From positions 1 through 30,927 of the IMG/VR virus record IMGVR_UViG_3300048586_000849: 30,927 nt of DNA. The stretch is one strand, 5' to 3'. Positions 1,699 through 30,927 of this stretch are shown here, in pieces. Each line of letters begins with the position of its first letter. Within the stretch, counting starts at the first letter, position 1. The translations under genes and the position numbers were made by a program. The stretch comes from a virus. The notes under the pieces were generated by a model. It did no database searches. It saw only the letters and a program-made list of their open reading frames with translations, and was not told where the DNA came from.

Positions 1699-3003
1699 TC
1701 AGGCTATCCGGAGCCAGATCGCGGTCGCGACGCTGGCGTTGATCTCACTGGCATCGAAGCCCCAGGTGGTGGGTGCCGCGGTCGCATAAGCGATGGTGCG
1801 CTGCAGGGTCTTGCGCGCGGTGGTGGCGGGGGCCCCGCCGTTGATGTCGGCAGTGCCGGAGGTCGACCAGACCGATACCGTGGCGGTGGAGGAGTGGCGC
1901 AGGCCGAACCAGTAAGTCCGCCCGGCCCGCAGGGTCAGGGAGGCCGCGATGCTGCGGATACCGAGCGTGCCGAGATCGAGATCGCCGGTTTCCAGGATCA
2001 GCTGATCGGGTCGGCCGTTTGCGTCCGCCGAATAAACGGCGATCTTGCCCAGCGCCCCGGCCACTTCAGAGGTGACGTTGATCGCCATCTGATCCACCAC
2101 CAAGTCCGCCCCCGGAGCCCAGGGGAAGAGCCTGATCCGGCCCGCCGCCCCGGTCTGGGTGCCGGTGACCGCGCCCATGCTCGAGGTCATCACGTGCTCG
2201 CCGGTGGCGGGCACGAGGAAGGGCACCTGCCTGCTGCCGAGAGCGACAGTCTGGCCAGCGATCCGGGCGCGCAGCTGCGATGCCGTGGAATTGTACCAGA
2301 GCCAACCGTCCGAGGGAGAGCCAGGATCGGAAGCGAGCCCTGCCAGCGCGACCCCGACCGGGAACTGCACCCGCCCGCTCGCCCGGTCTGCGATGATCGC
2401 GTCGAGGAAGGTGGTGCCGTCCGCACTGACGCGCAGCCGCCAGTCATCCGTGCCCAGCAGACCCATTCGTGCCCGGGCCGAAAGCGCAGTCCGGAAGGCA
2501 AGGGCGGCGTCGTTCCCGGAGGCCGCCTTGTTCAACGCGACCTGGATCCCTGAACCGGCGTGGTTCAACAGGACGGCGGCCGCGTTGATCGCCAGCCGCG
2601 TCGTGCTGTCCGCGGTCGCCCCGCCAAGGGCCAGCGTCCCGGCAACAATATCGGTGGGGAGCACGACGACGGGATCCCAGGCCGAGCCGGTCCAGACGCG
2701 AAACATCTCCTCGGACGCGATCCAGACCAGCCAGCCCGGGCGCGGCACCAGGCGCAGCCAGGCGCCGTCGATCCAGAAGGCGATGTTCTCATCCCATCCT
2801 GCCCAGAGCCCTGTCGCCCCTGCCGCCACGAGGTGGCGGTCTCCATCGGCGGGGCTGGCGGGCGGCGCAGTGCGGATGCGGTCGAGGACCGAGAGCTGGA
2901 CCAACCCGTCGAGAAGGCGCAGCGCCTCGTTGTGGGTGACATGCTTCTGGGACTGGGCGGCCAAAAGGTAAGGCAACCCGAGATGGGTTGTTGTGTCAGA
3001 CAT
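1699..3003 (-). CDS. DUF2793 phage protein, probable tail fibre / tip accessory
   Basis: A 434-residue protein whose first ~95 residues match the DUF2793 family common in alphaproteobacterial prophages (MSDTTTHLGLPYLLAAQSQK..., then HNEALRLLDGLVQLSVLDR and a W-rich GLWAGWDENIAFW region). The middle is repetitive and fibre-like (Ala/Thr/Asp-rich, about residues 130-270). The C-terminal ~150 residues look like a beta-sandwich (alternating beta strands, LTLRAGRTYWFGLRHSS) and could bind a surface ligand. It follows the host-specificity gene by 21 bases and precedes the lysis cassette, the usual slot for tail-fibre genes. AGGA lies 9 bases before the start. DUF2793 has no firmly established function; a role in adsorption is inferred from position and domain layout. 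Confidence 0.75.
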   Translation of the reverse strand: MSDTTTHLGLPYLLAAQSQKHVTHNEALRLLDGLVQLSVLDRIRTAPPASPADGDRHLVAAGATGLWAGWDENIAFWIDGAWLRLVPRPGWLVWIASEEMFRVWTGSAWDPVVVLPTDIVAGTLALGGATADSTTRLAINAAAVLLNHAGSGIQVALNKAASGNDAALAFRTALSARARMGLLGTDDWRLRVSADGTTFLDAIIADRASGRVQFPVGVALAGLASDPGSPSDGWLWYNSTASQLRARIAGQTVALGSRQVPFLVPATGEHVMTSSMGAVTGTQTGAAGRIRLFPWAPGADLVVDQMAINVTSEVAGALGKIAVYSADANGRPDQLILETGDLDLGTLGIRSIAASLTLRAGRTYWFGLRHSSTATVSVWSTSGTADINGGAPATTARKTLQRTIAYATAAPTTWGFDASEINASVATAIWLRIA

Positions 3004-3024: not shown

Positions 3025-6000
3025 TCAGAACTGTAGGGTCACGGCGGCAGGCGTGCCGCGCCCGAGGCGGTTCGAGATCTGGAAGATGCGGATCGCGAGC
3101 GTGTCGCCGGGTCCGAGGGGTGCGCCCCAATCGGCGGTCTGGTCGGCTGCGGCATAGATCACAGACGTGGTGGTCGCCGTCAGAGTGCGCTTGACCGTTG
3201 CGCCGTCACGGATCTGGACGTCATAGCGCTCGATCTCTTCGGCCAGCGGCACCTCGACCTGTTCCCAGGCATCGGCGACGAGCGCACGGGAGCGCCGCGT
3301 CCAGCGGATCGTCAGGTCGCCGGGCACCCGGGCAGACCGCCATGGCTGTTCGACATGGACCGGCGCGAAGGGCACGAGCCCCTGTCCCTCGGGCGTGAAG
3401 CTGCGCGCGGTGTAGCTCGGATCGCTCACCGCCCGGGCCGCAGGACCAATGCGCCAGTTCCAGGGGATCCCGAGATCGGCCTCGGCGATGGGCAGTTGCG
3501 TCACGGCCGCATCCAGCACCACCACCCGTGCGCCTGCCGGGGTCGGGGTGCCCATCGCGGCCTCCGTCCCGCGCTGTCCACGCAAGAGCCGGGTCAAGCG
3601 ATAGCGCCGCGGGGCGATCAGTTCGGCCGAGCCCGCCTGCACGATCTCCCAGACACCCGGTGCTGCTTCCACCGCCAGCGCATTGGCCCCGCCGAAGAGG
3701 GTGAGGTCGGTGACGCCTTCCAGCGTGCCGGATGCAAGATCGACGACGAGGGCATTGCCCATGTCGAACCGCGAGGTAGGCCCGGGTCCGAGATCGGCGG
3801 CTAGCGTGCCGATCCGAGCCCGGCGGCCGAAGATGGTCCTCAGGGCAAACCCATCGGTCGAGGGACTGCGGAACACGGCAATCTCGCCCGGCCACGGGAT
3901 GGCGTGGGTGGCGATCAGCGGGCGATGCGCGGGTTGGTCCTCAGCGAGTTGCGGCAGATCGAGGAGAATGACCTGTGGCGCGCCGAAGACCACCGGGCGT
4001 GTCAGTGTCGTGGTGCGCGGCTGAGTGGGCGGCACTTCTCCAGCCGCCTGATCTTGGCGCACGGCCTCGATCCCGCGCGCGTCCGCATCGGCGATGGTGA
4101 CCAGCCGGAGGTCCACCTCGCGTCCGTCATGCACGAGACTGATCACATCGGTTGGGTCGAGCGCCAGCCGCGATGGCGGCAGGCGGAAGCTCGCTGTCTC
4201 GCGGCCGGTCCAGGCTTCCATCAGCGCGCGGCGACAGCGGCGCTCGGCTTCCTCGGGCGGCACCGCGACGGGGAAGGTCTCAGAGGCAATCCGCGTCGTG
4301 TCGACGGTGATGCGGCGCGCCTCGACGAGGGCGGCGTCGTAATCCTCGTCGGCGCGGGCGACCTGCCACTTCAGGGCTTGCGGCAGCTCCGTCTCCTGCG
4401 CTCGGACCAGTTCCAGCACTTCGCCATCGCCTGACGCGCCGCCGATGTTCGGGGCCACAAGATCGTCATGGGTCAACGTCAGGGCTGCCGCCCGCCCGCG
4501 CATGACGAAGCGGATGCGGCCTTCGGTCTCGATTGCATCGAACCCGAAATGTCGCGCCAGCATGCTGATCGAGGTCCGGGGACTTTCCAGTGCCGAGATC
4601 ACATAGCCTTCGACGGCACCCCAGAGACCCCCGACATCGATCCGGTCTTCCGGCATCCCGGCCCGCTGGCACAGGTGGCGCACGAGAGCAGCCAACGATA
4701 CGGCACCCAGCCGTCCGGTCAGCCAATGCCCGGTACGCCAGTTCGTGCTGTCGGCCCAGACTTCGGTCAGTTCGGGAAAGAACGGATAGGGACGCGCGTC
4801 CCAAGACCAGGCGGCGGAATCCGCCAGGCGGACCATCCGGCCCACGTAGACCGAAGAGGCTGGATTGTTCGCCGACTTGCCCCACCAGGAATAGACGGCC
4901 TCGAGCGCCGCGCGCTGGATCGCATCATCGCGCCCACCCCGCGAGAAATGCGGCAGGCCACTGTCCGAAGACAGCGCATCGACGGGTGCATCGGGCTGGT
5001 TAGTGCCGCGGTCGATCGCGGGACACCCCAGTTGCGTGAACCGGATCGGCTTCGACTGCGGGGCCCAAGCCGTTGGTCCACCGCTTTCCACCCCGCCGGG
5101 TCGGTTGACGTGCTGGTTCGACCACCACGCCTGCAGGTCCTTGGGCCGGAAGACCCACGGCTTGCCATGGGCGGCATCCGTAATCGGGGTGCGGACCTGC
5201 GCGTTGCGGTTGGCTGTGCTGGCATAGCGCCAGTCGAAACCCTCGCCACCCGCGATGTTGGCCTGCAGATAGCTGCGGTCGTAGATCGCGGGCCAGCCCC
5301 CGGGCGGTGGGGTGATAACCCCGATAGGGTCAGCCGAGATGGCGTCGAGATGATCAATCCCGTCCCGCCAGTCCGACAGCGGAAACCATGCGTCGATCCC
5401 GATGAAATCCACCGCGTCATCCACCCAGAGCGGATCGAGATGGAAGAAGACATCCCCGCTGCCATCCTGCGGCTGATGCCCGAAATACTCCGTCCAGTCC
5501 GCCGCATAGCTGATCTGTGTCTCGGTCCCGAGGATCGTCCGGACATCGCCCGCGAGGGTCCGGAGCGCAGTGACGGCGGGATAGGTGCTCGCCCCGGAGC
5601 GGATCGTGGTCAGCCCGCGCAGCCCGCTGCCGATGAGGAAGGCATTCACGCCACCGGCCGCCTCGCAGAGATGGGCATAGTGCAGCACCATCCGGCGTAG
5701 ACCCCAGTCACCGGAGGGTCCGTCCCAGCTGACGGTCTCGCCGCTGACATCGAAGTCGCCGGGAGCCGCCCCACCGAAGAACGCCGTGACCTGCGTGGCG
5801 GCTGCACCGGTCTTGTCCACCGTTCCCGTGAAACCCGCCGCCGGGGAACAGGTGATGCGCGCCCGGGAGGGATACTTGGGCTGGCCTGTGGTCGCGGCAT
5901 TCGCGCTGTAAGGGTTCGGCAGGCCGTTTCCCGGCGGCACGTCCATCAGCACCAGCGGCAGCAGCGTGACGCGCAACCCGCGCGCCTTCAGCTCCCGGAT

Positions 6001-7041
6001 CGCCTGCACCACCGCGAAATCCGCGGGTGTCCCGCCGAAGACCGGGCGGTCGCCGCTGTCACGACTGATCAGATGCGCGGTCCCCCGGCCGACGCCGTTC
6101 ACAACCCAAGAAACCGGTGTGGTGATCTTCGCGTTCACTTCGACACCGGGCCTGATCGTGCAGGACCCCGCGCGGAGATCGTCGCCGAACCACGGCACCA
6201 CAAGCGTCACACCTTCGACTGCCGGGACCATCGCCTGCAGCTGGTCGAGGGCGACAATAAAGTCGGGCGTGTCGGGGAGAGCGGTCAGGTTCTCCGGGAC
6301 CGTCTCGCCGCTGCTGCCTGAGCGGATCGCTTGCGTCGCGAGACCGAACTCGCCGCCGGGGAGCAGGGTGACGGCCTTGACCAGCCCCTCGGCGGTGTCG
6401 GGATCGGCCAGCGGGCGGAACACCTCGAAGGAGAGCTGCGGCAGGCGGTTGCCGTAGCGCGACAGCGCCAGATCCTCGAATATGACATAGGCCGTGCCGC
6501 GATAGGCAGGAGTGTTCCCGGTGCCCATCGTCGCGGCGATGAAGGGATCGGGGGTCTGCGCCTCGTCGCCCGGATACCAGCGCCAGGTCACGCCGGTAAT
6601 GTCCATCGGCTTGCTGTCCGCCCAGATGCGGCCGATGCCGGTGATCGGGCCCTCGCAGAGCGCCACCGCGAAGGAGGCGTAGTAGAGGTATTCCGTGGTG
6701 GTGACAGACCCGCCGCCGCCACCCTTGCCGCCACCTTGGCTGGTGGTCTTCGTCTCCTCGCGGAAATCGGTGGCCCAGATGATGTTGCCGCCAAGGCGCA
6801 TCCGGCCGTAAAGCCGCGGGATCACCGCGCCTTCGGTTGCCGAGGTGATGCGCAGGGTGTCGAGCCTTGCGCCCTCGATCCGCTGGGCCGGGGCCAGCGA
6901 GGACACGATCCAGCTGTCGACGACCGACCCCACGGCCGAGCCGATGAAACCGCCGATCGTGGCGGCGCCGACGCCGAGGATCGTGCCGCCGATACTGCCG
7001 CCGATGGCAGTGCCGACAGCACCTAGGACCAGGGTAGCCAT
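3025..7041 (-). CDS. GTA TIM-barrel host-specificity / tail tip protein (lambda J position)
   Basis: A 1338-residue tail-tip protein of the family that includes the C-terminal tail protein of the Rhodobacter gene transfer agent (gp15, the 'megatron'). Regions: a glycine-rich hydrophobic N-terminus (about 1-50, GTAIGGSIGGTILGVGAATI) that could insert into membrane; an N-terminal hub-like region to about 430; a GTA TIM-barrel-like domain at about 440-755 (LHYAHLCEAAGGVNAFLIGS, FIGIDAWFPLSDWRDG); a phage-tail_3-like region at about 810-1000; and a C-terminal beta-rich part. Expected roles are the central tail hub or fibre, host recognition and envelope penetration. It comes 9 bases after the NlpC/P60 gene, in the order DUF2460-DUF2163-NlpC/P60-GTA_TIM known from GTAs. 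The Shine-Dalgarno is weak (GAGAG), so coupling to the upstream gene is likely. Confidence 0.92.
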   Translation of the reverse strand: MATLVLGAVGTAIGGSIGGTILGVGAATIGGFIGSAVGSVVDSWIVSSLAPAQRIEGARLDTLRITSATEGAVIPRLYGRMRLGGNIIWATDFREETKTTSQGGGKGGGGGSVTTTEYLYYASFAVALCEGPITGIGRIWADSKPMDITGVTWRWYPGDEAQTPDPFIAATMGTGNTPAYRGTAYVIFEDLALSRYGNRLPQLSFEVFRPLADPDTAEGLVKAVTLLPGGEFGLATQAIRSGSSGETVPENLTALPDTPDFIVALDQLQAMVPAVEGVTLVVPWFGDDLRAGSCTIRPGVEVNAKITTPVSWVVNGVGRGTAHLISRDSGDRPVFGGTPADFAVVQAIRELKARGLRVTLLPLVLMDVPPGNGLPNPYSANAATTGQPKYPSRARITCSPAAGFTGTVDKTGAAATQVTAFFGGAAPGDFDVSGETVSWDGPSGDWGLRRMVLHYAHLCEAAGGVNAFLIGSGLRGLTTIRSGASTYPAVTALRTLAGDVRTILGTETQISYAADWTEYFGHQPQDGSGDVFFHLDPLWVDDAVDFIGIDAWFPLSDWRDGIDHLDAISADPIGVITPPPGGWPAIYDRSYLQANIAGGEGFDWRYASTANRNAQVRTPITDAAHGKPWVFRPKDLQAWWSNQHVNRPGGVESGGPTAWAPQSKPIRFTQLGCPAIDRGTNQPDAPVDALSSDSGLPHFSRGGRDDAIQRAALEAVYSWWGKSANNPASSVYVGRMVRLADSAAWSWDARPYPFFPELTEVWADSTNWRTGHWLTGRLGAVSLAALVRHLCQRAGMPEDRIDVGGLWGAVEGYVISALESPRTSISMLARHFGFDAIETEGRIRFVMRGRAAALTLTHDDLVAPNIGGASGDGEVLELVRAQETELPQALKWQVARADEDYDAALVEARRITVDTTRIASETFPVAVPPEEAERRCRRALMEAWTGRETASFRLPPSRLALDPTDVISLVHDGREVDLRLVTIADADARGIEAVRQDQAAGEVPPTQPRTTTLTRPVVFGAPQVILLDLPQLAEDQPAHRPLIATHAIPWPGEIAVFRSPSTDGFALRTIFGRRARIGTLAADLGPGPTSRFDMGNALVVDLASGTLEGVTDLTLFGGANALAVEAAPGVWEIVQAGSAELIAPRRYRLTRLLRGQRGTEAAMGTPTPAGARVVVLDAAVTQLPIAEADLGIPWNWRIGPAARAVSDPSYTARSFTPEGQGLVPFAPVHVEQPWRSARVPGDLTIRWTRRSRALVADAWEQVEVPLAEEIERYDVQIRDGATVKRTLTATTTSVIYAAADQTADWGAPLGPGDTLAIRIFQISNRLGRGTPAAVTLQF

Positions 7042-7050
7042 GGTGAACTC

Positions 7051-7512
7051 TCAGCGTTGGGGGAAGAGGAAGGCGAAGGCGATGCGCCGTCGCCAGGTCA
7101 GGGTCAGCGGTTCCTCGATGACGCCGAGCCGCTCATAGGCGTGGATGAAACTGGCGGGCCCCGTCAGGATGCCAACATGCTTGGCGATGGCGCCCGGCCG
7201 CATGCGGAATAGGACCAACGCACCGGGTGGGGGATCGCTTGCGGTAACCTCCACCATCATGCGTCGTGCGCCTTCGGCCAGAACCTCGCGCGGACCAGTC
7301 TCGCCCCAATCCCGGCTGTAGGGTGGGATCGGGAAGGGTTCGGGCCCGAACACCTCGCGCCAGACCCCGCGCGCGAGACCGAGGCAGTCGCAGCCCACAC
7401 CCTTGAGACTGGCTTGGTCGTGGTAGGGCGTGCCCAGCCAGGACCGCGCAATGGCGATGACCAGAGTAGGGTCGACGACGGCACTCACCTCTTCAGGATG
7501 AGCGGCCTTCAC
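7051..7512 (-). CDS. NlpC/P60 family tail-tip peptidase
   Basis: A 153-residue NlpC/P60 cysteine peptidase, the counterpart of RcGTA gp14 and of the lambda K peptidase position. Candidate catalytic residues from the chosen start: Cys43 in GCDCLGLARGVW, His112 in KHVGI and His124 in FIHAYE, in the order and spacing of the Cys-His-His triad. It probably cuts peptide stems of host peptidoglycan during DNA entry and sits in the tail tip. The GTG at 7512 is chosen as start because it overlaps the TGA of the preceding DUF2163 gene (GTGA) and has AGGGGG 7-8 bases upstream; longer in-frame starts would run deep into the DUF2163 gene. Confidence 0.9.
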   Translation of the reverse strand: MKAAHPEEVSAVVDPTLVIAIARSWLGTPYHDQASLKGVGCDCLGLARGVWREVFGPEPFPIPPYSRDWGETGPREVLAEGARRMMVEVTASDPPPGALVLFRMRPGAIAKHVGILTGPASFIHAYERLGVIEEPLTLTWRRRIAFAFLFPQR

Positions 7513-8393
7513 AGCACCGCCCCCTGATGCCCGCCATCCTTGGTGGCATAACGCAGCACGGCATCTTGGCCGGGAATGTGCGGGAACCCCCTGAAGTTCG
7601 CGACATTGGCGAACTTCGCCGCGCAGGTCTCGATGCGCTTGTCGCATCCTGCGCGGATGGTGAAGGCTGCAGCAACGGCGATGGCCCGCACCGGCGGTTC
7701 CAGGAGAGTCAGCACCACCGCGCCAGCCGCAACGTCATGCGCCAGCACCTCGGCCTGCCGCCCGGCATTGGCCCCACTGGTCCAGTGCAGCGTGCCGGAG
7801 GCGAACCAGCCGGGATCGAATGCGCCAAGCCCTGAGGCGGTGAAGGCCCGATCATGCTGGAGGGCGGTGACCGCGCCGGTGCCCTTGAGCGCCGGTGCCT
7901 CGATGTTGACTCCGCAGCGCGCATCGCCCAGCGCCGCGTCACAACTGGCCTGGAACGTCCGCCCGACTGTTTGGCCAAGGACATGGGCCAGCGACCGCAC
8001 CTCGGCGACGAAGGCCAGCCGTCCGCGCCGGATCTGGCCGATGGCGCCGCGCCGCATCAGAACGCGCTGACCCGTCGCTCGCCAGTTCACCCGCCAGACC
8101 TCGACGGCGGCATTGTCCCAGCGACCGTCGAGAATGTCGGTCTCTGTGATGCGATCAGAGGACAGCACCCCTTGGGCATCTTGCGCATCGACCGCGAGGT
8201 CCGACCCGGAGCGGACTTCGGACGCCGAAAACCCGCTTTCAGGATCGAAGGTGGTGCCGTCGAAGCTGAGCGGCTCATCATGATCGGTGAAGCCGAAGCT
8301 GACCCCGTCAGCGCGGGTGATCCGCCAGCACCAGGCCAGCGTCGTGGTGCCATCGTCGAGATGCGCCTGCAGGGCGGGAGAGAGCGACTTCAT
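7509..8393 (-). CDS. DUF2163 tail hub protein (GTA gp13-like, lambda L position)
   Basis: A 294-residue protein matching DUF2163 (N-terminal MKSLSPALQAHLDDGTTTLA, the RADGVSFGFTDHDEPLSFDG block) and the C-terminal domain that ends many of these proteins. Four cysteines (Cys151, Cys160, Cys250, Cys257) have C-x8-C and C-x6-C spacing; these are the spacings I recall for the iron-sulfur ligands of lambda gpL, which occupies the same gene-order position. It is expected to form part of the baseplate hub joining the tail tube to the tip. The start at 8393 is preceded by GAGG at 8 bases. It lies 28 bases after the DUF2460 gene and overlaps the NlpC/P60 gene by 4 bases. Confidence 0.92.
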   Translation of the reverse strand: MKSLSPALQAHLDDGTTTLAWCWRITRADGVSFGFTDHDEPLSFDGTTFDPESGFSASEVRSGSDLAVDAQDAQGVLSSDRITETDILDGRWDNAAVEVWRVNWRATGQRVLMRRGAIGQIRRGRLAFVAEVRSLAHVLGQTVGRTFQASCDAALGDARCGVNIEAPALKGTGAVTALQHDRAFTASGLGAFDPGWFASGTLHWTSGANAGRQAEVLAHDVAAGAVVLTLLEPPVRAIAVAAAFTIRAGCDKRIETCAAKFANVANFRGFPHIPGQDAVLRYATKDGGHQGAVL

Positions 8394-8421: not shown

Positions 8422-11223
8422 TCACGCCGGGACCAGCGTGACGGTGACGCCGGTGGCATCGACGACCGGCGTGTAGCCCGCATGGGTGACGGTCAGCGCG
8501 CCGGAACAGGTGCCGACAGTGCGCAGCACATGCTTGGTCGTGGCCTCGAGATCGTCGATCCGGATGCTGCCGCTGATCCCGGTTACCCGGGTGGCGGAGA
8601 TGCCGCGCTGGCCACCTCGCTGGAAGCAATTCGCGAAGGTGAGACCGGTGACGTCCTCGAAGTACCAGGCGTAGTGGAAGGTCTGGGTCCGGATGGCCTC
8701 GAGGCGGACCCGGCGCAGGGTCAGGTCCTCGATCCGGAACAGGCGGAAGTTCAGGATGCCCCCGACATTGGCCGTGCCCACCCCCGAGCCGCCGACCGTC
8801 CAGTCCTCAAGCGTCAGGCGCTTGACGTGGATGCTGTCCGAGGTGTTGTCCACTTCGCTCAGCCGGTCGCGGATATTGTCGGCACTGACATTGCGGATGA
8901 TGATATCTGTCGAGAAGAGCGCCGGATGCCGGTCGTTCTTGGCGATGGCCAGTACCCGGTCGACATCGTCGCAGTCGAGACCGTCCACGGTGACGTTGCG
9001 CGAGCCCGGCACGATGTTGATCGCATTGCCCCGGTAGCCGGTGACGGTGTTGTTCAGGACCTGGATGTCCTCGTCGAACCAGAAGCGGTTATTGCCGATC
9101 CGGATCGCATCGGGCAGATCGCCAAGGTCGGGCGAGAGCAGGAGCCCGTCATTGCTGATCGTGTTGTTGCGGATGATGACACCCTTGTTCCAGCTGCCAT
9201 GGGTGTCGAGGCTGCTCGAGGTGTCGTCGCGCACCGTGTTCCATTCGACGATGCAGCCGTCCGTCGTGCTCCAGAGCTCGATGCTGTGGCGGCACTTCTC
9301 GATGTCGCAGCGCGACACGACGGAGTTCCGCTCCCCGCGGCGCAGGGACACGCCATAGCCTTCACCCGCCTCGATGCTGCCGCCCCGCCCGATGGTGAGG
9401 CGCGTGATCGTGTTCCCCGCGCCGGTATCGGACCGCACCGCCTGGCCGATCCGGCGATGCGTGAGGGCCCGGGCGGCGTCCTTGTCGAACAGCGCATCGC
9501 TGATCGTGCTGTTCACGCAGTAGCGCGCCCAGATGTACTGGTGCTCCCAGGCCTCGGCTGCAGACCCATCCTGCTGGCCGACATAGCGCCCGCCCTTCAG
9601 GGTGGCATTCTCGATCGGGTCGACCTTCACGCAGGCAGCGTTCCAGGCGGTCAGCTTGTTCTTGCCGAGGGGCTCGGCCAGCGTCAGCGTGTTGCCCGAC
9701 TTGGCGGTGATGCGATGGATCTCCTCGTTGATGATGATGTCGCCAAAGGGCTCGGTCGGATCGAGCAGCACGCCCAGCGTCGCCGCAAACTGGTTGCCGG
9801 TGGGCGTGGGCAGTTCCGAGGTCGAGAGATAGACCCAGTCGCCGACAGAGAGACCGCTGGCATCGACAAGGGTCACTTGCGTGGCCCCCGTGGCGGCATT
9901 GGCAGAAAGAAGCGAGCCGACCAGCAGCGTCACAGTCGACGGGTCCTCGGTCTCGCCGGGAAAGTCGAGCGGGTTTGAAACGGCGACCGAGATGGTCAGC
10001 GGGCGCGACAGGGTCAGAACCCGGCCGGAAATGCTTTCGATGTAGATGATCTCCCGGCTCTCGGCGGGGTGGTAATCCGGGGCGGTGGCATTGGTGCGCA
10101 CCACGGCGATGGACCCCGGACCGACGGTCGCCAGAAACGCGGTGGTGTCCGCATCGTCCTTCAGGGTCAGCGTCGTCGCGCCGATGGCAGCGGCAACACC
10201 GACCGAGGGCGGCGAGACCGAGGGGGCTTCGACGACATCACCCCAGAGGTGGAATTGGCCCCAATAGGTTCCGGTCTTGCCGCGCTCGACCACGGTGTCG
10301 GCGAGGTCCAGCGTCCAGTTCCGAAGCACCGAGCGCGGCGGCGGCTGCATCCGACCGCGCAGGTGCATCGTGCCTGTCGGGCTCTCGAGGAGGATAGTCG
10401 CGCCGTCAGACTGAAGGGTGGGCAGCACGCTCCGCATGAAGAACTCGAGCGGCACTTCGGCAGGCTGACCGGTGCTGGTGCCCCAGCCGGTCCAGTTGGC
10501 TCCCCCGGCAATACTGCGGTGATCCGCGAAGACGTCGGTCCAGGTGAAGATGGTGGGTGCGGGCGGTTCCGGGTCCGGGGGAGGCAGCGCAGGTCCTCGC
10601 TGCCGGATCTCGATCAGTGGGATTGAGGTGATCGAGCCCAGCCGTTCGACATCGAGTGTGACATCCAGCAGATCGGTGTCGAACCGGACCGGTACGTCAA
10701 ACTGGAAACCTGCGCGGACAACGACGCCGTTCGCGGGCGCGGTGGCAAAGGTCACGACGCCTGTCGCGGCATCGAGCGTCCAGCCTGAGGTCTGCTCTGT
10801 AAGGCCCAGCGCAATGCGCACAGTACCGGCAACCGGTCGGGCGATCGTCCGGACCCATGTCTGCCCCCCCGATGTATAGCGCTTCACCAGCTGAAACGCG
10901 GTGATGACCCCGTTCCCGGTGCCGATCGACTGATCGAGCGGGGTGACGGTCTGCGACGGCAGGCAGGACTTGTAATCCGCCCAGTCCTTGAAGCGGAAGC
11001 CGTGCAGGCGGCCGTTGCGGGCTTCAAAGAAGGCAACGACCGCTGCCAGATCGTCCGCGCGGCGGATGCCATAGGCCACATCATAGCGCCGCCGCGAGTT
11101 CGCCCAGCTGGCGTTGCGTTCCTCGTCGCCCGAGGCCAGCGTCACGATCTGCGTGCGCCGCTCCGGCCCGCCGCGCGCGCCACGGCTGATGTTGTCGGGA
11201 AACCGGATGTCGTGAAACGCCAT
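8422..11223 (-). CDS. DUF2460 distal tail protein fused to a right-handed beta-helix tailspike
   Basis: A 933-residue protein. Residues 1-208 are a complete DUF2460 domain (MAFHDIRFPDNISRGARGG, FFEARNGRLHGFRFKDWADY), equivalent to RcGTA gp12 and usually a free-standing ~210-residue protein at the lambda M position. A proline-rich linker (about 211-223, PALPPPDPEPPAP) leads to a ~700-residue C-terminal region. Its last ~400 residues show the short repeating beta/Asn pattern of right-handed parallel beta-helices (RNNTISNDG, IRIGNNRFWF, VLNNTVTGYRGNAINIV, IIIRNVSADNI), as in pectate-lyase-like tailspikes and depolymerases. Inference: a tail-tip subunit carrying its own receptor-binding or polysaccharide-degrading spike. 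The start at 11223 has GAGG 9 bases upstream; a GTG five codons earlier overlaps the tape-measure stop and is a second option. Confidence 0.88.
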   Translation of the reverse strand: MAFHDIRFPDNISRGARGGPERRTQIVTLASGDEERNASWANSRRRYDVAYGIRRADDLAAVVAFFEARNGRLHGFRFKDWADYKSCLPSQTVTPLDQSIGTGNGVITAFQLVKRYTSGGQTWVRTIARPVAGTVRIALGLTEQTSGWTLDAATGVVTFATAPANGVVVRAGFQFDVPVRFDTDLLDVTLDVERLGSITSIPLIEIRQRGPALPPPDPEPPAPTIFTWTDVFADHRSIAGGANWTGWGTSTGQPAEVPLEFFMRSVLPTLQSDGATILLESPTGTMHLRGRMQPPPRSVLRNWTLDLADTVVERGKTGTYWGQFHLWGDVVEAPSVSPPSVGVAAAIGATTLTLKDDADTTAFLATVGPGSIAVVRTNATAPDYHPAESREIIYIESISGRVLTLSRPLTISVAVSNPLDFPGETEDPSTVTLLVGSLLSANAATGATQVTLVDASGLSVGDWVYLSTSELPTPTGNQFAATLGVLLDPTEPFGDIIINEEIHRITAKSGNTLTLAEPLGKNKLTAWNAACVKVDPIENATLKGGRYVGQQDGSAAEAWEHQYIWARYCVNSTISDALFDKDAARALTHRRIGQAVRSDTGAGNTITRLTIGRGGSIEAGEGYGVSLRRGERNSVVSRCDIEKCRHSIELWSTTDGCIVEWNTVRDDTSSSLDTHGSWNKGVIIRNNTISNDGLLLSPDLGDLPDAIRIGNNRFWFDEDIQVLNNTVTGYRGNAINIVPGSRNVTVDGLDCDDVDRVLAIAKNDRHPALFSTDIIIRNVSADNIRDRLSEVDNTSDSIHVKRLTLEDWTVGGSGVGTANVGGILNFRLFRIEDLTLRRVRLEAIRTQTFHYAWYFEDVTGLTFANCFQRGGQRGISATRVTGISGSIRIDDLEATTKHVLRTVGTCSGALTVTHAGYTPVVDATGVTVTLVPA

Positions 11224-11234
11224 GGGTTCGGACC

Positions 11235-13676
11235 TCACATGCCCCGGCGGCCCAGCGACACCGCGCGGGCGATGTCGGCGGCGACCTGCGTGCGGGATTG
11301 CCGGAAGCTCTCGGCATCGCGTGCCATGATCGTGACGTTGACAGTCGAGGCACTGGACTGGTCGTAACCTGCAGCCTCGCGCCGCGACAGAACACGTTCG
11401 CCCCGCTGCAGGATCGCAGGAACCTCGTCAGGCCGCAGCCCGGCCCAGCCACCGCTGTGCATCCGGGGGGCGCCCGCGAAGGCCAAGGCGGGGACCATAC
11501 GACCCGGGCCCGGCGTTCCGACTGTCCCGCCCGCGTGCAGGATGTTGGCGAAGATCCCGCCTGATCCGCCCAGCGCGCCAGACAGGGCTCCGGCGATCGG
11601 CCCCAGGATGAACCGCCGCGCGGCCAGTTGCGCCAGATCGGCGATCATCGACGTCACCAGATCCCGGAAGTCGAGCTTGCCGGTCTTCACGAAGTCACCC
11701 ACCGCCCGCTCGGCCGAAGTGAAGGCCCCGACCAGCGTCTGGCCGATATCGCCGCCGATGTCGCGGGCCTTCGTCGCATAGTCGGCCAGCGCCGCCGTCA
11801 CGGCAGCCCAGCCAGTCAGCGCTTGTTCCGAGCCTTCGGCCGCCGCAGCCCCGGCATCGCGCGCTGCTGCCCCGGCGCCGGTCGCGGCGGCGGCTGTCTC
11901 GTCCAGTTCCAGACCCAGCGCATCCGCCGAGGCAGCGGCATCCGCCAGTGCGGCCTCAGCCTCCGCCCCGGTCCCGGTCACCGCATCACGCAGCGCCTGC
12001 CAGCTGGCGAGCGGTCGTCCAGTCGCATCGGCCAGCAAGCCTGCGGCCTCGCGATAACCGTCGGCCCGGGCGCGGGCATCGGCGGCCATCGCGCCAAGCC
12101 CGAGGTCGGGCGGTGCGAGGTAGGTCTGCGACAGCGCCGCCGAGAAGGCTTCCGCCGCAGCTGTTCCTGCTGCCGCAGCCGACCCCTCAAACGGGTTGTC
12201 GATCCGGCCCAGAGTCAGCGGGTCGAGCGTGCCGATCCGGACACCTCCTTCGCCCACCGCCCAGTCCGGCAGAAGGTCGAGCGCCGCGTTCAACCCGTTG
12301 ATGAACCCGTTGATGCGGGTGACGACACCGTTCAGCATCGCTTCGACGCCCGAGATCAGTCCGTTTGCAGCCTGAAAGGCAAAGTCCCCGATGGCACCGG
12401 GCAAACTGCCCCAGATCGCCACGGCGGCATCAAAGGCCCCCTGAAACACCGCCGCTGTCCGGTCCCCAAAACTGACGACACCGGCGATGGTGCCTTCCAG
12501 CGCAGAAAGTCCGGCCGCCTTCAGACCCTCCCAGCCAGCGGCCATGTTGGCGAAGGCAGCGTCGAGCGACAGGCTGATACGGGACCAGACCTCCTTGGCC
12601 AGATCGCCGAGCAACCGGAAGGCTTCGCCTACACCGCCGACCCGCTCCACCAGCCGGGTGAACTGGTAGACCAGTTCCCCCGCACCCACGATCAGTGCGC
12701 CGATCCCGGTCCGGATCAGTGCCCCGCGCAGGAAGACCAGTGCGGTGGCCAGACCGCGCACCGAAAGGGCTGCAACCGCCATGCCCGCGACCCAGCGCCC
12801 TGCCATGAAGGCGACGAAGGTTGCGGCATAGGTCGCGAGGCGGCCGAGGTTGTCGAACACCAAAGTGATGGCACCGCCGAGCGGCCCTGTCCCCCGCGCG
12901 ACATCGGCCAGTGCGTTCGCCACCGTCTCCAGCGCCGGGGCGACGGCGGCGGTCAGGCGGTTGGTGAGGCCAAGCCAGATCTGGCTCAGCTTCGCTATTG
13001 CATCGCCGGTGCGTTCGATCTGGGCCGCATCCGCCGCGCTGACCGCCACCCCGAAATCCTGAACATCCTGAGCGGCCTCCCGCAGGGTGGCAGCGTCGAT
13101 GCGAAGGAACGCGAGTGCCGCCCGGTCACCGAAGAGGTCAGACGCCACCGCCGCGCGCTCGGCCTCGGGGACATAGCGGGCCAAGGCATCCTGGATGGCC
13201 ACGATGCGCTGGTCGAGCGGCATCGCCTGCAGTTCGGCCGCCGTCAGGTTCAGGCGCTGCAGGGCGCCGACGGCCGAGCCAGACCCAGCGGCGGCTTCCG
13301 ACAGCCGCGTGGTCAGCTTCTTCGTGGCCTGTTCGATCTCGCCCATCGAGACACCGGCCAGCTCTCCTGCCCATGTCAGCACCTGCAGGCTTTCGACGGT
13401 GGTCCGTAGCGAGGCGGCCATGTCGGCCTGCGCGCCGATGACATCCAGGCCCGAGCGCACCATCGCCACGCCCGTGGCCACGGCTGCTGCCGTCACGGCC
13501 GCCAATGCGATCCCGGCTTTGCGGGCGAACGCGCCAAGCCGCGAATTGGCAAGCTCCATCTCGGAGGACAGGCGGCCAAACCCGCGCGTGCCCGCCTCGC
13601 CGATGCCTTCCAGTTCCGCGCGCACCTGGCGGCCGCCTTCGGCGACAAGGCGGACGGAGACGCGTTTCTCGGCCAT
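11235..13676 (-). CDS. Tail tape measure protein (lambda H position)
   Basis: An 813-residue, Ala-rich, largely helical protein. It opens with the common tape-measure start (VSVRLVAEGGRQVRAELEGI), has an early hydrophobic helix at about 53-72, a longer hydrophobic stretch at about 270-330 and a C-terminal block at about 630-700 (LVGAFTSAERAVGDFVKTGK, FRDLVTSMIADLAQLAARRF) resembling the lambda-type tape-measure C-terminal domain. It sets tail length and is expected to be ejected with DNA; at the usual ~0.15 nm per residue the tail would be roughly 120 nm (inference). It begins 3 bases after the stop of the T frame of the tail chaperone gene and has no good Shine-Dalgarno of its own, pointing to coupling. 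Confidence 0.93.
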   Translation of the reverse strand: MAEKRVSVRLVAEGGRQVRAELEGIGEAGTRGFGRLSSEMELANSRLGAFARKAGIALAAVTAAAVATGVAMVRSGLDVIGAQADMAASLRTTVESLQVLTWAGELAGVSMGEIEQATKKLTTRLSEAAAGSGSAVGALQRLNLTAAELQAMPLDQRIVAIQDALARYVPEAERAAVASDLFGDRAALAFLRIDAATLREAAQDVQDFGVAVSAADAAQIERTGDAIAKLSQIWLGLTNRLTAAVAPALETVANALADVARGTGPLGGAITLVFDNLGRLATYAATFVAFMAGRWVAGMAVAALSVRGLATALVFLRGALIRTGIGALIVGAGELVYQFTRLVERVGGVGEAFRLLGDLAKEVWSRISLSLDAAFANMAAGWEGLKAAGLSALEGTIAGVVSFGDRTAAVFQGAFDAAVAIWGSLPGAIGDFAFQAANGLISGVEAMLNGVVTRINGFINGLNAALDLLPDWAVGEGGVRIGTLDPLTLGRIDNPFEGSAAAAGTAAAEAFSAALSQTYLAPPDLGLGAMAADARARADGYREAAGLLADATGRPLASWQALRDAVTGTGAEAEAALADAAASADALGLELDETAAAATGAGAAARDAGAAAAEGSEQALTGWAAVTAALADYATKARDIGGDIGQTLVGAFTSAERAVGDFVKTGKLDFRDLVTSMIADLAQLAARRFILGPIAGALSGALGGSGGIFANILHAGGTVGTPGPGRMVPALAFAGAPRMHSGGWAGLRPDEVPAILQRGERVLSRREAAGYDQSSASTVNVTIMARDAESFRQSRTQVAADIARAVSLGRRGM

Positions 13677-15832: not shown

Positions 15833-16225
15833 TCAGATCTGGTTGAGCCTGCTGCTTTTCATGGGGATTTCGAACATCGCCCCGCCGCCGACCAGGTCGG
15901 CTTGGATTTCGATGGTTTCCCATAACGCCATCAGGCGTTCCATCTGCTTGGTCAGTTTGGCCTTCTGCAGCCCAGGCGCAAGGAAGAAACCTACCAGTTT
16001 CGAACTCTTGAATGCTTGTTGTTCAGCTTTGTTCTTCGTGATCCGGCGGTCCGCTGAGATGATGACCCAATGCCCCTCGGCGTTCAAAGCCCCGATCCAT
16101 TCGGTGTCCTTGACTGCGGACCCGAACTTTTCTCTCAGGTGAACGACCTCATGTTTTCCAGCAAAGAGAGCTGCAAGTGCTTTCGCCATGGCCGGAGGCA
16201 GGTTTTCATCAACCATTACCTTCAA
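15833..16225 (-). CDS. PIN-like toxin (VapC45 / DUF5615-like)
   Basis: A 130-residue protein of the PIN-like group whose members begin with a KxLxDENLP motif (here KVMVDENLPPAMAKAL). Candidate metal-binding acidic residues are Asp6, Glu7, Asp40 (VKDTEW) and Asp59 (ISADRRI), in the order seen in PIN ribonucleases, so an RNA-cleaving toxin activity is expected. The frame starts at a TTG (16225) that overlaps the antitoxin stop (TTGA); the ATG at 16216 is an alternative but would remove part of the first beta strand. A GGAG lies 13 bases before the TTG. Base composition is visibly less GC-rich than the surrounding tail genes, consistent with acquired cargo. Confidence 0.72.
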   Translation of the reverse strand: MKVMVDENLPPAMAKALAALFAGKHEVVHLREKFGSAVKDTEWIGALNAEGHWVIISADRRITKNKAEQQAFKSSKLVGFFLAPGLQKAKLTKQMERLMALWETIEIQADLVGGGAMFEIPMKSSRLNQI

Positions 16226-16923
16226 GCGGCCATCAGCTCCTCATGGAACCTGACGGCATCCTGGACCACCGACTTTTCAACTTCGTACATCGCCGCTACG
16301 CGAGACACGGAGCCTTCGGCCTTGACGGATTCCGCCAAGACAATCGTTGGGACACCGGATGCGGACGCAACCGGCTGGCCGAAGGATCGTGTGGGGTCGA
16401 CGACGATGCTGTCCTTCCCCCGATACGGCCGCCACCGCGTTACGATGTCACCCTCGAGATCCAGATCCTTGAAGCTCTGCTCGACAGCCTGCTTGAAGAC
16501 ATACTGCTTGGCCTTGAGATCAAGCAACTTAGGCTCGTCCGAAGCATCAAGGCTCTCGAGGAAGATCGTGCGTCCATCGGTCCGGAAACGACCAGACGAA
16601 AAGGGGCGATCCGTTTGCATGCACTGCCGAGCATATTCGAGGCAGTTCCGAACAGCCTTCAGCCCAATCCCATTGTCGAGGAAGGCCCGCACGAAACGGA
16701 GTTCAATGAGATCGCGAAAGCTCAGCTCGATTTCATCGTCAATCTTGGGGATGTCTGGTTTCCAGAGGGGCGCAACATGCTGGATTTCGTCATTTTTCTT
16801 GTAATCATAACCATCCAGCCACCGCCGCAGTGTCCGCGGTGGTGCCTTTAGAAGCTGCGCAGCATCGGCCACAGAGTACAGGCCGACCCCAACGAACTGG
16901 TGGATGGGCATGTGTCGGTTCAT
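16222..16923 (-). CDS. DNA-binding antitoxin (VapB45-like, HTH plus DUF433-type C-terminus)
   Basis: A 233-residue protein. Residues ~12-40 form a MerR-like helix-turn-helix (GLYSVADAAQLLKAPPRTLR, then RWLDGY), followed by a helical middle region with RDLIELRFVRAFLDNG and a C-terminal winged-helix-like region related to DUF433 (GVPTIVLAESVKAEGSVSRV). This two-part architecture next to a DUF5615-type PIN protein is that of VapB45-like antitoxins. It probably neutralises the toxin and represses its own promoter. The start at 16923 is chosen as the first ATG; an upstream TTG (16959) and the ATG at 16911 are possible. Its 3' end overlaps the toxin frame by 4 bases. Base composition again differs from the tail genes. 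Confidence 0.72.
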   Translation of the reverse strand: MNRHMPIHQFVGVGLYSVADAAQLLKAPPRTLRRWLDGYDYKKNDEIQHVAPLWKPDIPKIDDEIELSFRDLIELRFVRAFLDNGIGLKAVRNCLEYARQCMQTDRPFSSGRFRTDGRTIFLESLDASDEPKLLDLKAKQYVFKQAVEQSFKDLDLEGDIVTRWRPYRGKDSIVVDPTRSFGQPVASASGVPTIVLAESVKAEGSVSRVAAMYEVEKSVVQDAVRFHEELMAA

Positions 16924-16931
16924 CGTTTCAG

Positions 16932-16959
16932 GTTGTAGCGACGCGGTCGCGGGAAGCAA
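16932..16959 (-). promoter_or_regulatory. Weak candidate promoter for the toxin-antitoxin pair
   Basis: On the minus strand TTGCTT (16959-16954) and TACAAC (16937-16932) are spaced by 16 bases in the 108-base gap ahead of the antitoxin gene. The -10 match is 4/6 and the -35 match only 3/6. If used, transcription would begin within a few bases of the ATG, giving a nearly leaderless mRNA. Confidence 0.25.
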
Positions 16960-28336: not shown

Positions 28337-29668
28337 CTAATCGCCTTGGACTCGGTTCGCCTTCCGCCCAGTCGCCATCTCCCACCGCCGGACGGCGACG
28401 TCGCAATAGACTGGGTCCAGTTCCACCGCGCAGCAGTGCCGCCCGGTGCGTTCCGCTGCGATCAACTGGGTACCGGAGCCGCAGAAGGGCTCGAACACCA
28501 GGTCGCCGGGGTCAGTGAAGGCCTCCAGCACTGCCTCGACTAGAGCCACCGGAAACACGGCAGGGTGCGATCCGGCGGCGCCGAGCCCGCCCTTGTGGCG
28601 CATGATGCGGAAGACAGAGTCGGGGATGCGGTGGCTCTGGATCGCATTGCCGAAGCCGGTCTTGCGATGGACCGTGCCATCGGCCCCGCGCAGCCCACCG
28701 CCGCCGAGGGTCTCGCCCGCGTGCTTGCTCTCGACCGTCTTGTTCGGCTTCCGGGGCTGGCGGTTGAAGTGGAAGATGAACTCGTGCGACGGCGCCAGCC
28801 GCCCATTCCAGTCCCCGGGCAGGCCCGGCCCCTGGTCCCACACATACCATCCGAACCGCCGCCAGCCCTGTGCGCGCATCCAGTCGACCCAGCCCTCCCA
28901 GTAGGGGATCCACTCGCCATCGCGGTGGACGAGGCCGAGGTTTACGAGCAGTTGGGCATCGGCGGTGACAGGTGCCGCGGCGAAGACGCCCTGCATCAGC
29001 GCATCCCAATCGCCGACCTTTTCCTTCGCCGCGCCATAGTCGCGCTGCTGGGCATAGGGCGGGGAGGTGAAGAGGAGCGAGGCCTGTGCCCCATACATCA
29101 GCCGGGCCACCACAACCGCGTCGGTCGCATCGCCGCAGATCAGCCGGTGGTCGCCCAGCGCCCAGATGTCGCCGGGCCGGGTGATCGGGTCGGCCGGGGC
29201 CTCGGGGATGGTGTCGGCGGTGTCATCATCGATGGGCGCGCGGTCGTCGGTGTCGTGCAGCAGGGCGTCCAGCTCGTCCTCGGGGATCCCGATCAGCCCG
29301 AGGTCGAAGTCCTCGGCCATCAGGCCTCGCAGTTCTTCCAGCAGCAGCGCCTCGTCCCACCCGCCCAGTTCGGTCAGCTTGTTGTCGGCGATCCGATAGG
29401 CGCGCCGTTGCGCCTGGGTCAGATGACCCAGCACGATGACCGGCGCCTCAGCCAGCCCCAGTTGCGCAGCGGCAAGGACGCGACCATGGCCCGCGATCAT
29501 CTCCCCATCCGCGGCGACGAGGCAGGGAACGGTCCAGCCGAATTCCGCCATGCTGGCGGCGATCCTTGCCACCTGGTTGGCGTCATGGGTCTTGGCGTTG
29601 CGGGCATAGGGACGCAGGCGGGCGAGGGGCCAATGCTCGATCTGGCCGGGCAGGAGGGGCGCGTTCAT
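28337..29668 (-). CDS. ParB-like / DNA methyltransferase fusion, SPPY type
   Basis: A 443-residue protein. Residues ~8-110 are a ParB/sulfiredoxin-like domain (LRPYARNAKTHDANQVARIA, DGEMIAGHGRVLAA, RRAYRIADNKLTELG) and residues ~165-443 a beta-class DNA methyltransferase with catalytic SPPY (202-205, LLFTSPPYAQQRDYG) and the AdoMet-binding FCGSGT motif near the C-terminus (395-400). The order, catalytic motif before AdoMet motif, is that of N4-cytosine/N6-adenine methylases; SPPY is more often linked to N4-cytosine. No cognate restriction enzyme is visible, so it is an orphan phage enzyme, probably protecting phage DNA. The start at 29668 overlaps the stop of its paralogue as ATGA. The target sequence cannot be told from this window. 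Confidence 0.9.
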   Translation of the reverse strand: MNAPLLPGQIEHWPLARLRPYARNAKTHDANQVARIAASMAEFGWTVPCLVAADGEMIAGHGRVLAAAQLGLAEAPVIVLGHLTQAQRRAYRIADNKLTELGGWDEALLLEELRGLMAEDFDLGLIGIPEDELDALLHDTDDRAPIDDDTADTIPEAPADPITRPGDIWALGDHRLICGDATDAVVVARLMYGAQASLLFTSPPYAQQRDYGAAKEKVGDWDALMQGVFAAAPVTADAQLLVNLGLVHRDGEWIPYWEGWVDWMRAQGWRRFGWYVWDQGPGLPGDWNGRLAPSHEFIFHFNRQPRKPNKTVESKHAGETLGGGGLRGADGTVHRKTGFGNAIQSHRIPDSVFRIMRHKGGLGAAGSHPAVFPVALVEAVLEAFTDPGDLVFEPFCGSGTQLIAAERTGRHCCAVELDPVYCDVAVRRWEMATGRKANRVQGD

Positions 29669-30927
29669 GCCGCGAGCCGCTTGGCCTTGAGGACGGCAAA
29701 CGTCTCACCGGTGTCCTCCAGCACGGCATCCTGGCCCGTGAACGACTGCCAGCGCTCGATGGCCACATCGACATAAGCCGGGTTCAACTCGACCCCGTAG
29801 CAGACACGGCCGGTGGTGTCGGCCGCGATCAGTGTGGTGCCGGATCCCATGAACGGTTCATAGACCGCCTGGCCGGGGCTGGAGTTGTTCAGGATGGGGC
29901 GCCGCATGCATTCGACCGGCTTCTGTGTGCCGTGCACGGTGTCGGCATCCTGATCCCGGTTGGCGATCTGCCACAGCGTCGTCTGCTTGCGGTCCCCGGC
30001 CCAATGCCCCTTGCCCTTGGCGCGCACCGCATACCAGCAGGGTTCGTGCTGCCAGTGATAGTCGCCACGGCTGAGGACCAGCCGGTCCTTGGCCCAGATG
30101 ATCTGCGACCGGATCGCGAAACCTGCAACGGTCAGACTGTCCGCCACCGTCCCGGCGTGCAGCGCGCCATGCCAGACATAGGCGACGTCGCCGGGGAACA
30201 GGGCCCATGCCTCACGCCAGTCGGCTCGGTCGTCGTTCAGCACCTTGCCGGTGCGTTTGGTCTTGGCCGCGCCCGCCTGGTTGCGCCAGGAGGGATCGTA
30301 CTCCACGCCATAGGGCGGGTCGGTGACCATCAGGAGCGGGCGCACATCACCCAACAACCGCCCGACCACGTCGGCCGAGGTGCTGTCGCCGCAGATCAGC
30401 CGATGCGCGCCCAGCTGCCAGAGGTCGCCCGGCACCGACACCGGCGTGACCGGCAGCTCCGGAACATCGTCCTCGCCCTCGACTGGACCATCCCCGCCCA
30501 GCGCCTCGGGATCCCGCAGCAGGGCGTCGAGGTCGTCGTCACTGATGCCCAGAAGAGTCAGGTCGAAGTCCTCGGCCAGCAGTCCCGCGATCTCGTCGCG
30601 CAACACGGCCTCGTCCCATTCGCCCAGTTCCGTCAGCTTGTTGTCGGCGATCCGGTAGGCCCGGCGTTCCGCTTCATCCAGATGGCTGAGCCGGATCACC
30701 GGCACTTCGGTCAGCCCGAGCATGGTGGCGGCCAGCACGCGGCCGTGGCCTGCGATCAACTCGCCATCGTCGGCGACCATGCAGGGCACGGTCCAGCCGA
30801 ACTTCGCCATGCTGGCGGCGATCTTCGCCACCTGGTCGTCGCCATGCATCTTGGCATTGCGGGCATAGGGGCGCAGCCTGTCAATCGGCCAGGTTTCGAT
30901 CTGGCTCGGCGCGAACACGAGGTCCAT
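29665..30927 (-). CDS. ParB-like / DNA methyltransferase fusion, DPPY type
   Basis: A 420-residue paralogue of the next gene. The ParB-like domain (~8-110) is nearly alignable with it (PYARNAKMHGDDQVAKIAAS, DGELIAGHGRVLAATMLGL, RRAYRIADNKLTELG), whereas the methyltransferase part differs: catalytic DPPY at 203-206 (MVTDPPYGVEYDPSWRNQ) and FMGSGT at 359-364. DPPY is the usual motif of N6-adenine methylases. Its ATG is the last triplet of the window, and the paralogue's N-terminus aligns with this one, so the gene is probably complete. It overlaps the next gene by four bases. Upstream promoter and Shine-Dalgarno lie outside the window. Confidence 0.9.
   Translation of the reverse strand: MDLVFAPSQIETWPIDRLRPYARNAKMHGDDQVAKIAASMAKFGWTVPCMVADDGELIAGHGRVLAATMLGLTEVPVIRLSHLDEAERRAYRIADNKLTELGEWDEAVLRDEIAGLLAEDFDLTLLGISDDDLDALLRDPEALGGDGPVEGEDDVPELPVTPVSVPGDLWQLGAHRLICGDSTSADVVGRLLGDVRPLLMVTDPPYGVEYDPSWRNQAGAAKTKRTGKVLNDDRADWREAWALFPGDVAYVWHGALHAGTVADSLTVAGFAIRSQIIWAKDRLVLSRGDYHWQHEPCWYAVRAKGKGHWAGDRKQTTLWQIANRDQDADTVHGTQKPVECMRRPILNNSSPGQAVYEPFMGSGTTLIAADTTGRVCYGVELNPAYVDVAIERWQSFTGQDAVLEDTGETFAVLKAKRLAA

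Follow-up and report, generated by a model that had tools for sequence, protein, structure and literature searches.

A distal tail protein carrying a predicted beta-helix tailspike, probably a polysaccharide depolymerase, in Rhodobacterales phages with an RcGTA-type baseplate

In RcGTA, six trimers of the tailspike TspA (Rcc02623) stand around the baseplate, where they touch the OB domain of the distal tail protein (Dit), the tail tube and the megatron (PMC13420450, a July 2026 preprint). TspA has a beta-helix, cuts biofilm and falls off easily, and the preprint found no homologue of it in phages whose baseplate is of the RcGTA type; RcSimone-Hastad has no such complex (PMC13420450). The Dit itself forms a hexameric ring above the hub and the megatron in phage R4C (PMC10276861), and the Dit proteins of both RcGTA (Rcc01695; PDB 6tba) and R4C (8gtc) end at about residue 210. 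Dits enlarged by a polysaccharide-directed module are known from Gram-positive phages (Deep-Purple gp28, Lactobacillus J-1 and skunaviruses) as evolved Dits (evoDits), defined by a carbohydrate-binding module in internal Dit loops (PMC7291167). The Klebsiella K1 capsule lyase (7w1c/7w1d; catalytic residues Tyr311, His373 and Arg397) and P560 depolymerase (7vul) combine a beta-helix, an inserted domain and a C-terminal part, and have no Dit fusion. Here we describe a viral gene in which a Dit of the RcGTA type and a predicted beta-helix spike share one reading frame, and compare it with these systems.

The gene lies in a window of 30,927 nucleotides, the whole stretch of DNA that was analysed (positions 1 to 30,927 of IMG/VR record IMGVR_UViG_3300048586_000849), and runs on the minus strand for 933 codons from an ATG at 11223 to a stop at 8422-8424 (Table 1). 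A sequence-only reading of the window had the limits of this frame exactly right, and we correct its strand to minus. It had also proposed a complete DUF2460 domain followed by a proline-rich linker and some 700 further residues, and this layout holds. PF09343 (DUF2460) matches residues 4-207 over model positions 1-205 of 205 (E 1.1e-89; 299.8 bits against a curated cut-off of 30.4), and the NCBIfam model TIGR02217, 'phage distal tail protein, Rcc01695 family', matches with E 2.6e-78 (262.4 bits against a cut-off of 136.65). The solved homologues of this half are the RcGTA Dit (6tba, E 1.2e-72) and the R4C Dit (8gtc, E 9.7e-50), which share with it the whole N-terminal domain (residues 1-207) and the position between tape measure and hub. 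By both profile and cassette position, the N-terminal part is thus a full DUF2460/TIGR02217 distal tail protein. Whereas the RcGTA and R4C proteins stop there, the window protein adds about 710 residues. The linker that opens this extension is 17 residues long in one subfamily of relatives (A) and about 33 in the other (B), proline-rich in both and variable in sequence.

Table 1 Features of the fusion gene and of the surrounding tail cassette in the window
Feature	Coordinates	Strand	Basis or remark
Dit-spike fusion gene	8422..11223	-	Single open frame, 933 aa; same fusion in L003-L011 and L084-L089
DUF2460/TIGR02217 distal tail (Dit) domain, residues 4-207	10603..11214	-	Profile and PDB matches
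Pro-rich linker, residues 208-224 (PALPPPDPEPPAP)	10552..10602	-	Starts where unspiked Dit proteins stop
Predicted right-handed beta-helix spike, residues 225-811, inserted region ~345-540	8791..10551	-	AlphaFold2 models; Foldseek and VIA matches
Sub-threshold K1-lyase Rider domain (PF24149), residues ~439-471	9811..9909	-	Profile match below Pfam cut-off
Pfam Beta_helix match, residues 595-747	8983..9441	-	Pfam scan
Best-conserved spike stretch, residues 640-740	9004..9306	-	Candidate active-site face
C-terminal tip, residues 812-933	8425..8790	-	Candidate trimerisation or specificity part
Tape measure protein	11235..13676	-	Tape_meas_lam_C, E 1.1e-20
DUF2163/BR0599 baseplate hub	7509..8393	-	28 nt between spike stop and hub start
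NlpC/P60 cell-wall peptidase	7051..7647	-	Domain match
Megatron (GTA_TIM, Phage-tail_3, Rcc01698_C)	3025..7041	-	Domain matches
DUF2793 fibre-like protein, separate candidate receptor-binding protein	1699..3003	-	Domain match

The genes around the fusion follow the order tape measure, Dit, hub, NlpC and megatron, which is that of RcGTA-like phages and is also found in Rhodobacter phage RcFrancesLouise. The head genes are ordinary (lambda-type portal, S49 protease, Phage_cap_E and gpA terminase). Elsewhere in the window, judged by eye, two overlapping small genes of the tail operon (15833-16225 and 16222-16959, minus strand) resemble a toxin-antitoxin pair of a PIN-like protein and a helix-turn-helix partner, the sole match of the second gene being a PHROG of unknown function, and two adjacent frames (28337-29668 and 29665-30927, minus strand) each join a ParB-like N-terminus to an N6/N4 DNA methylase domain.

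Long DUF2460 proteins are the exception, and the usual length of about 210 residues assumed by the sequence-only reading is what we find. Searching IMG/VR with the window protein left 79 loci, of which nine are long and belong to one family; the rest end at 199-215 residues, bar one locus, in which the printed match starts with a stop codon. With a second and a third seed, 83 loci came up, of which 82 have 206-213 residues and one is interrupted. Most of the matches listed from 394 Rhodobacteraceae, 385 alphaproteobacterial and 398 proteobacterial genomes sampled are short. Of the long stop-to-stop frames, those we opened (up to 971 aa) extend upstream or are simply open frames. Exceptions that run on downstream are the spike family itself, a linker-bearing remnant that keeps Dit and linker and then continues into unrelated sequence (L136, in genome G246), and a truncated DUF2460 domain followed by 381 residues without resemblance to the spike (L135, in G070). 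None of 17 annotated phage records opened has a C-terminal spike on DUF2460, and outside the family we found no other C-terminally spiked DUF2460 protein among about 150 viral loci, the genome samples and these 17 records; nearly all other DUF2460 proteins examined end at residue 208-215. Used as a query against phage records, the spike returns just weak matches to particle-associated lyases and one tailspike. Its profile finds ten viral and five genomic loci, all of them fused to DUF2460, and the genomic ones lie in Oceaniglobus (twice), Cognatishimia, Roseisalinus and one Rhodobacteraceae MAG, so that every named carrier of the fusion belongs to the Rhodobacterales. The family is thus a small one, in phages of marine roseobacters and related bacteria.

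About a dozen distinct fused copies are thus spread over independent contigs and genomes. An assembly chimera or decaying prophage junk might be suspected from the interrupted spikes in L084, L085 and L087, which sit in prophages or fragments, and from the remnant L136. However, the frame is intact in the window and in L003-L008, L010, L011, L086, L088 and L089, and dN/dS of the spike is 0.05-0.17 in most pairs, like or below that of the flanking structural genes (0.38 between subfamilies, where synonymous sites are nearly saturated). The spike is under purifying selection. Its GC (66.1) and GC3 (86.6) fall within the genome range, GC3 at the upper edge, and a foreign composition is ruled out. 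Because independent contigs and named genomes carry the same in-frame fusion, and because its dN/dS is low, chance or a chimera is excluded and we give a reading as assembly artefact or decay almost no weight. The fusion is real, rare and conserved.

Two AlphaFold2 models (mean pLDDT 67 and 72, from ten-sequence alignments) both predict a parallel beta-helix bearing an inserted region, and both model the C-terminal part well. On these models, nearly all of the stretch 225-933 folds as a right-handed parallel beta-helix. The sequence-only reading had called for such a prediction and expected the helix in the last ~400 residues; the fold is as expected, although in the models it covers nearly all of the extension. 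The same reading had called the repeats Asn-rich, but asparagine is just mildly enriched, at most 11 per 100 residues (701-800). Because the Dit half is poorly modelled (pLDDT under 50 over residues 1-97), its placement is based on homology to the solved structures. The best Foldseek matches are the Klebsiella P560 depolymerase (E 1.8e-13) and the K1 capsule lyase, followed by the LKA1, phi297, KP34 and AP22 tailspikes, and further structural matches from Foldseek and VIA are AP22 gp54, HK620 and Sf6. In VIA-align the K1 lyase scores Z 26.3, aligned over 447 residues at 3.5 A; AlgE epimerases and other tailspikes reach Z 22-25. The top BFVD match is A0A7L7SNT1 (954 aa). Scanned alone, the spike passes the Pfam Beta_helix cut-off (26.8 bits against 25.9), and the Rider domain recurs in the same place in 5 of 10 spikes scanned at E 0.005-0.1, the best score being 17.6 bits against a cut-off of 27. 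The predicted succession of beta-helix, inserted region and C-terminal part is that of the K1 lyase and P560, to which the spike is 10-14% identical. We base the case for catalysis on fold and conservation, because identity to proven depolymerases in the structural alignments is just 10-16%.

Within subfamily A, to which it belongs, the window spike shares 79-96% identity with the other members; with subfamily B the figure is about 48%. Between the subfamilies, residues 640-740 are best kept (about 61%) and include the invariant H646, E649, D673, H675 and R708, whereas the tip drops to 10-29%. This pattern marks the first stretch as a candidate active-site face and the tip as a candidate trimerisation or specificity part. 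The spike could instead be a non-catalytic adhesin that binds polysaccharide and raises adsorption without cutting it. In known evoDits the added modules are binding modules, and the proteins serve as accessory adhesins (PMC9128512, PMC7291167), some of the beta-helix matches are non-enzymes (PfbA and NosD), and no catalytic motif could be transferred to the spike. However, depolymerases are the closest fold matches over almost the full length of the spike, and invariant His, Asp, Glu and Arg residues abound on its best-conserved face. On balance we regard an adhesin as unlikely, though a serious alternative, and depolymerase function together with a role in host range as likely.

For comparison with TspA, we collected its orthologues at the lysS locus of Rhodobacteraceae genomes, and two of these, both of 763 residues and one from Oceaniglobus, carry the published residues at the same numbers (E271, D287, R297, E377, D505, H533, D566, E571, E575 and D645). 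TspA and the spike share a broadly similar layout of helix, inserted domain and C-terminal part, and both present, or in our case would present, a beta-helix at the Dit of an RcGTA-type baseplate in Rhodobacterales. It might be supposed that the spike is a TspA family member carried by a phage and fused to its Dit, given the same Dit-centred location, fold class and bacterial group, and an Oceaniglobus genome that has both TspA (L272) and two Dit-spike prophages. However, phmmer finds no match between the spike and the TspA orthologues, blastp gives chance matches only and profile-profile comparison (hhalign) a probability of 0.6%. The profile of subfamily A recovers nothing TspA-like at E 0.01 from 295 Rhodobacteraceae genomes, and the TspA cap signature PF12708 did not turn up in the window spike. 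Homology to TspA is rejected on these searches, and membership of its family is highly improbable. TspA is encoded by its own gene in the host genome, adjacent to lysS, and docks non-covalently as six detachable trimers, whereas the spike is fused to Dit within a phage tail cassette. The best reading of the comparison is that the spike would be a functional counterpart of TspA, at the place where TspA works, yet not itself a TspA. The Oceaniglobus species is O. ichthyenteri, with prophages L085 and L086 and a GTA-type TspA beside lysS, and both designs therefore occur in one host.

Taken with the recurrence and constraint of the fusion, the predicted fold and the syntenic baseplate lead us to conclude that the gene product is probably a tailspike covalently anchored on the Dit ring, most plausibly a polysaccharide depolymerase, and as such an 'evolved Dit'. 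The sequence-only reading had foreseen a host-recognition or depolymerase element as part of the baseplate ring, and the fusion frame, the beta-helix models and the depolymerase fold matches agree with it. Homology to the solved Dit structures, with the full DUF2460 domain and the RcGTA-like gene order, suggests that the protein would build a six-fold ring at the tail end, with the spike tethered to the Dit C-terminus through the linker and six spike chains per virion permanently fixed beside the hub. The most likely task of these chains, as the fold implies, would be to bind and cleave polysaccharide of the host surface or of a biofilm, letting the tail tip and the separate fibres reach the outer membrane. 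That a spike-type enzyme can be presented at the Dit ring follows from the docking of TspA on the Dit OB domain in RcGTA, and the fused spike would do by covalent linkage what TspA does by docking. A tension is that spikes of such fold are usually trimers, whereas the Dit ring has six subunits. The six chains might form two trimers or stay six monomers, and the Pro-rich linker may allow either; monomers are conceivable because the K2-2 depolymerase is reported to be active without trimer formation (PMC10936425).

Alternatively, the spike could be cut off Dit after assembly or detach, to act as a loosely bound or soluble enzyme like TspA. TspA does come off in RcGTA (PMC13420450), and the linker, Pro-rich and variable as it is, might allow this. 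However, the linker shows no conserved cleavage site, every relative is fused, and a fusion is the opposite of a detachable design, making this alternative improbable.

The sequence-only reading had also proposed a possible specificity-swapping site, to be checked against the DUF2460 proteins of related prophages. One part of this stands: tail modules that are otherwise syntenic, with similar flanks, differ in whether they carry the spike. Flanking tail genes of spiked and unspiked phages are about as alike as those of spiked phages among themselves; the tape measure of the window is 89% identical to that of the unspiked L014, versus 70% over less than half for the spiked L085. In L087, the Dit half is 89-90% identical to unspiked phages versus 81-83% to the spiked L085 and L086, and its spike is 92% like theirs. 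Between L087 and L086, dS is 0.89 for Dit versus 0.26-0.48 for spike and flanks. The Dit half of L087 has been exchanged, its history differing from that of spike and flanks, and the linker is therefore a working module boundary. The cargo at the junction between Dit and hub is also varied. Across 181 loci carrying both genes, the gap is at most 20 nt in 107 and holds cargo in 74, which may be the fused spike, holin-like, lysozyme or GH108 genes, or separate fibre-like genes of 800-1129 residues. Examples of junction cargo are L014:6397-7532, L031:9100-9846, L075:7104-10490 and L081:5223-10565; the 1129-residue protein of L075 has no sequence relation to the spike.

Against the rest of the proposal, all Dit-spike fusions involve a single spike family, whose two subfamilies share about 50% identity, and exchange of different spikes was not seen. 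Fused forms fall in four places of the DUF2460 tree and form one clade in 0% of bootstrap trees; an AU test does not reject a single clade (p 0.122), and either one origin or repeated independent fusions may lie behind this pattern. A recent transfer of the spike between the L088 and L089 backbones was suggested by 87% spike identity against 62-78% in the flanks. It is rejected because synonymous sites are equally saturated throughout (pS 0.58-0.67), and constraint explains the spike identity.

DUF2460 also occurs in N-terminal fusions, with F5/8 type C (galactose-binding) domains in two genomes (L246:1821-3746 and L247:2632-3918) and with a TIM barrel of a non-contractile tail sheath in another (L254:1589-4444), and in phages DSS3P8 and RcKickapoo the DUF2460 genes are likewise extended at the N-terminus. 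The label glycoside hydrolase is attached to many short DUF2460 phage proteins (phrog_2913 and phage records), whereas the solved structures are of a distal tail protein; TIM-barrel fusions such as L254 may be its source.

The window gene is best read as an evolved Dit of a new sort, bearing a depolymerase-like tailspike. Like the evoDits of Gram-positive phages it would be a Dit enlarged by a polysaccharide-directed module, the fold suggesting the polysaccharide binding. Those carry binding modules, usually in internal loops, whereas here a depolymerase-like beta-helix of 710 residues is C-terminal and the host group Gram-negative. We tentatively propose that phages with an RcGTA-type baseplate have independently evolved a counterpart of TspA, in which an unrelated beta-helix depolymerase is held covalently at the same Dit as six tethered chains; the Dit-hub junction might then be a general entry point for cargo and the fusion one stable outcome.

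If true, a depolymerase-like spike on the Dit of a Gram-negative phage would add an enzyme-like module to the evolved Dit architecture. At least some phages with this baseplate would put an unrelated beta-helix spike, by fusion, where RcGTA uses TspA, which raises the structural question of how a normally trimeric fold is arranged on six Dit-bound chains and would let detachable and fixed spikes be compared, as they occur in nature, on the same type of baseplate.
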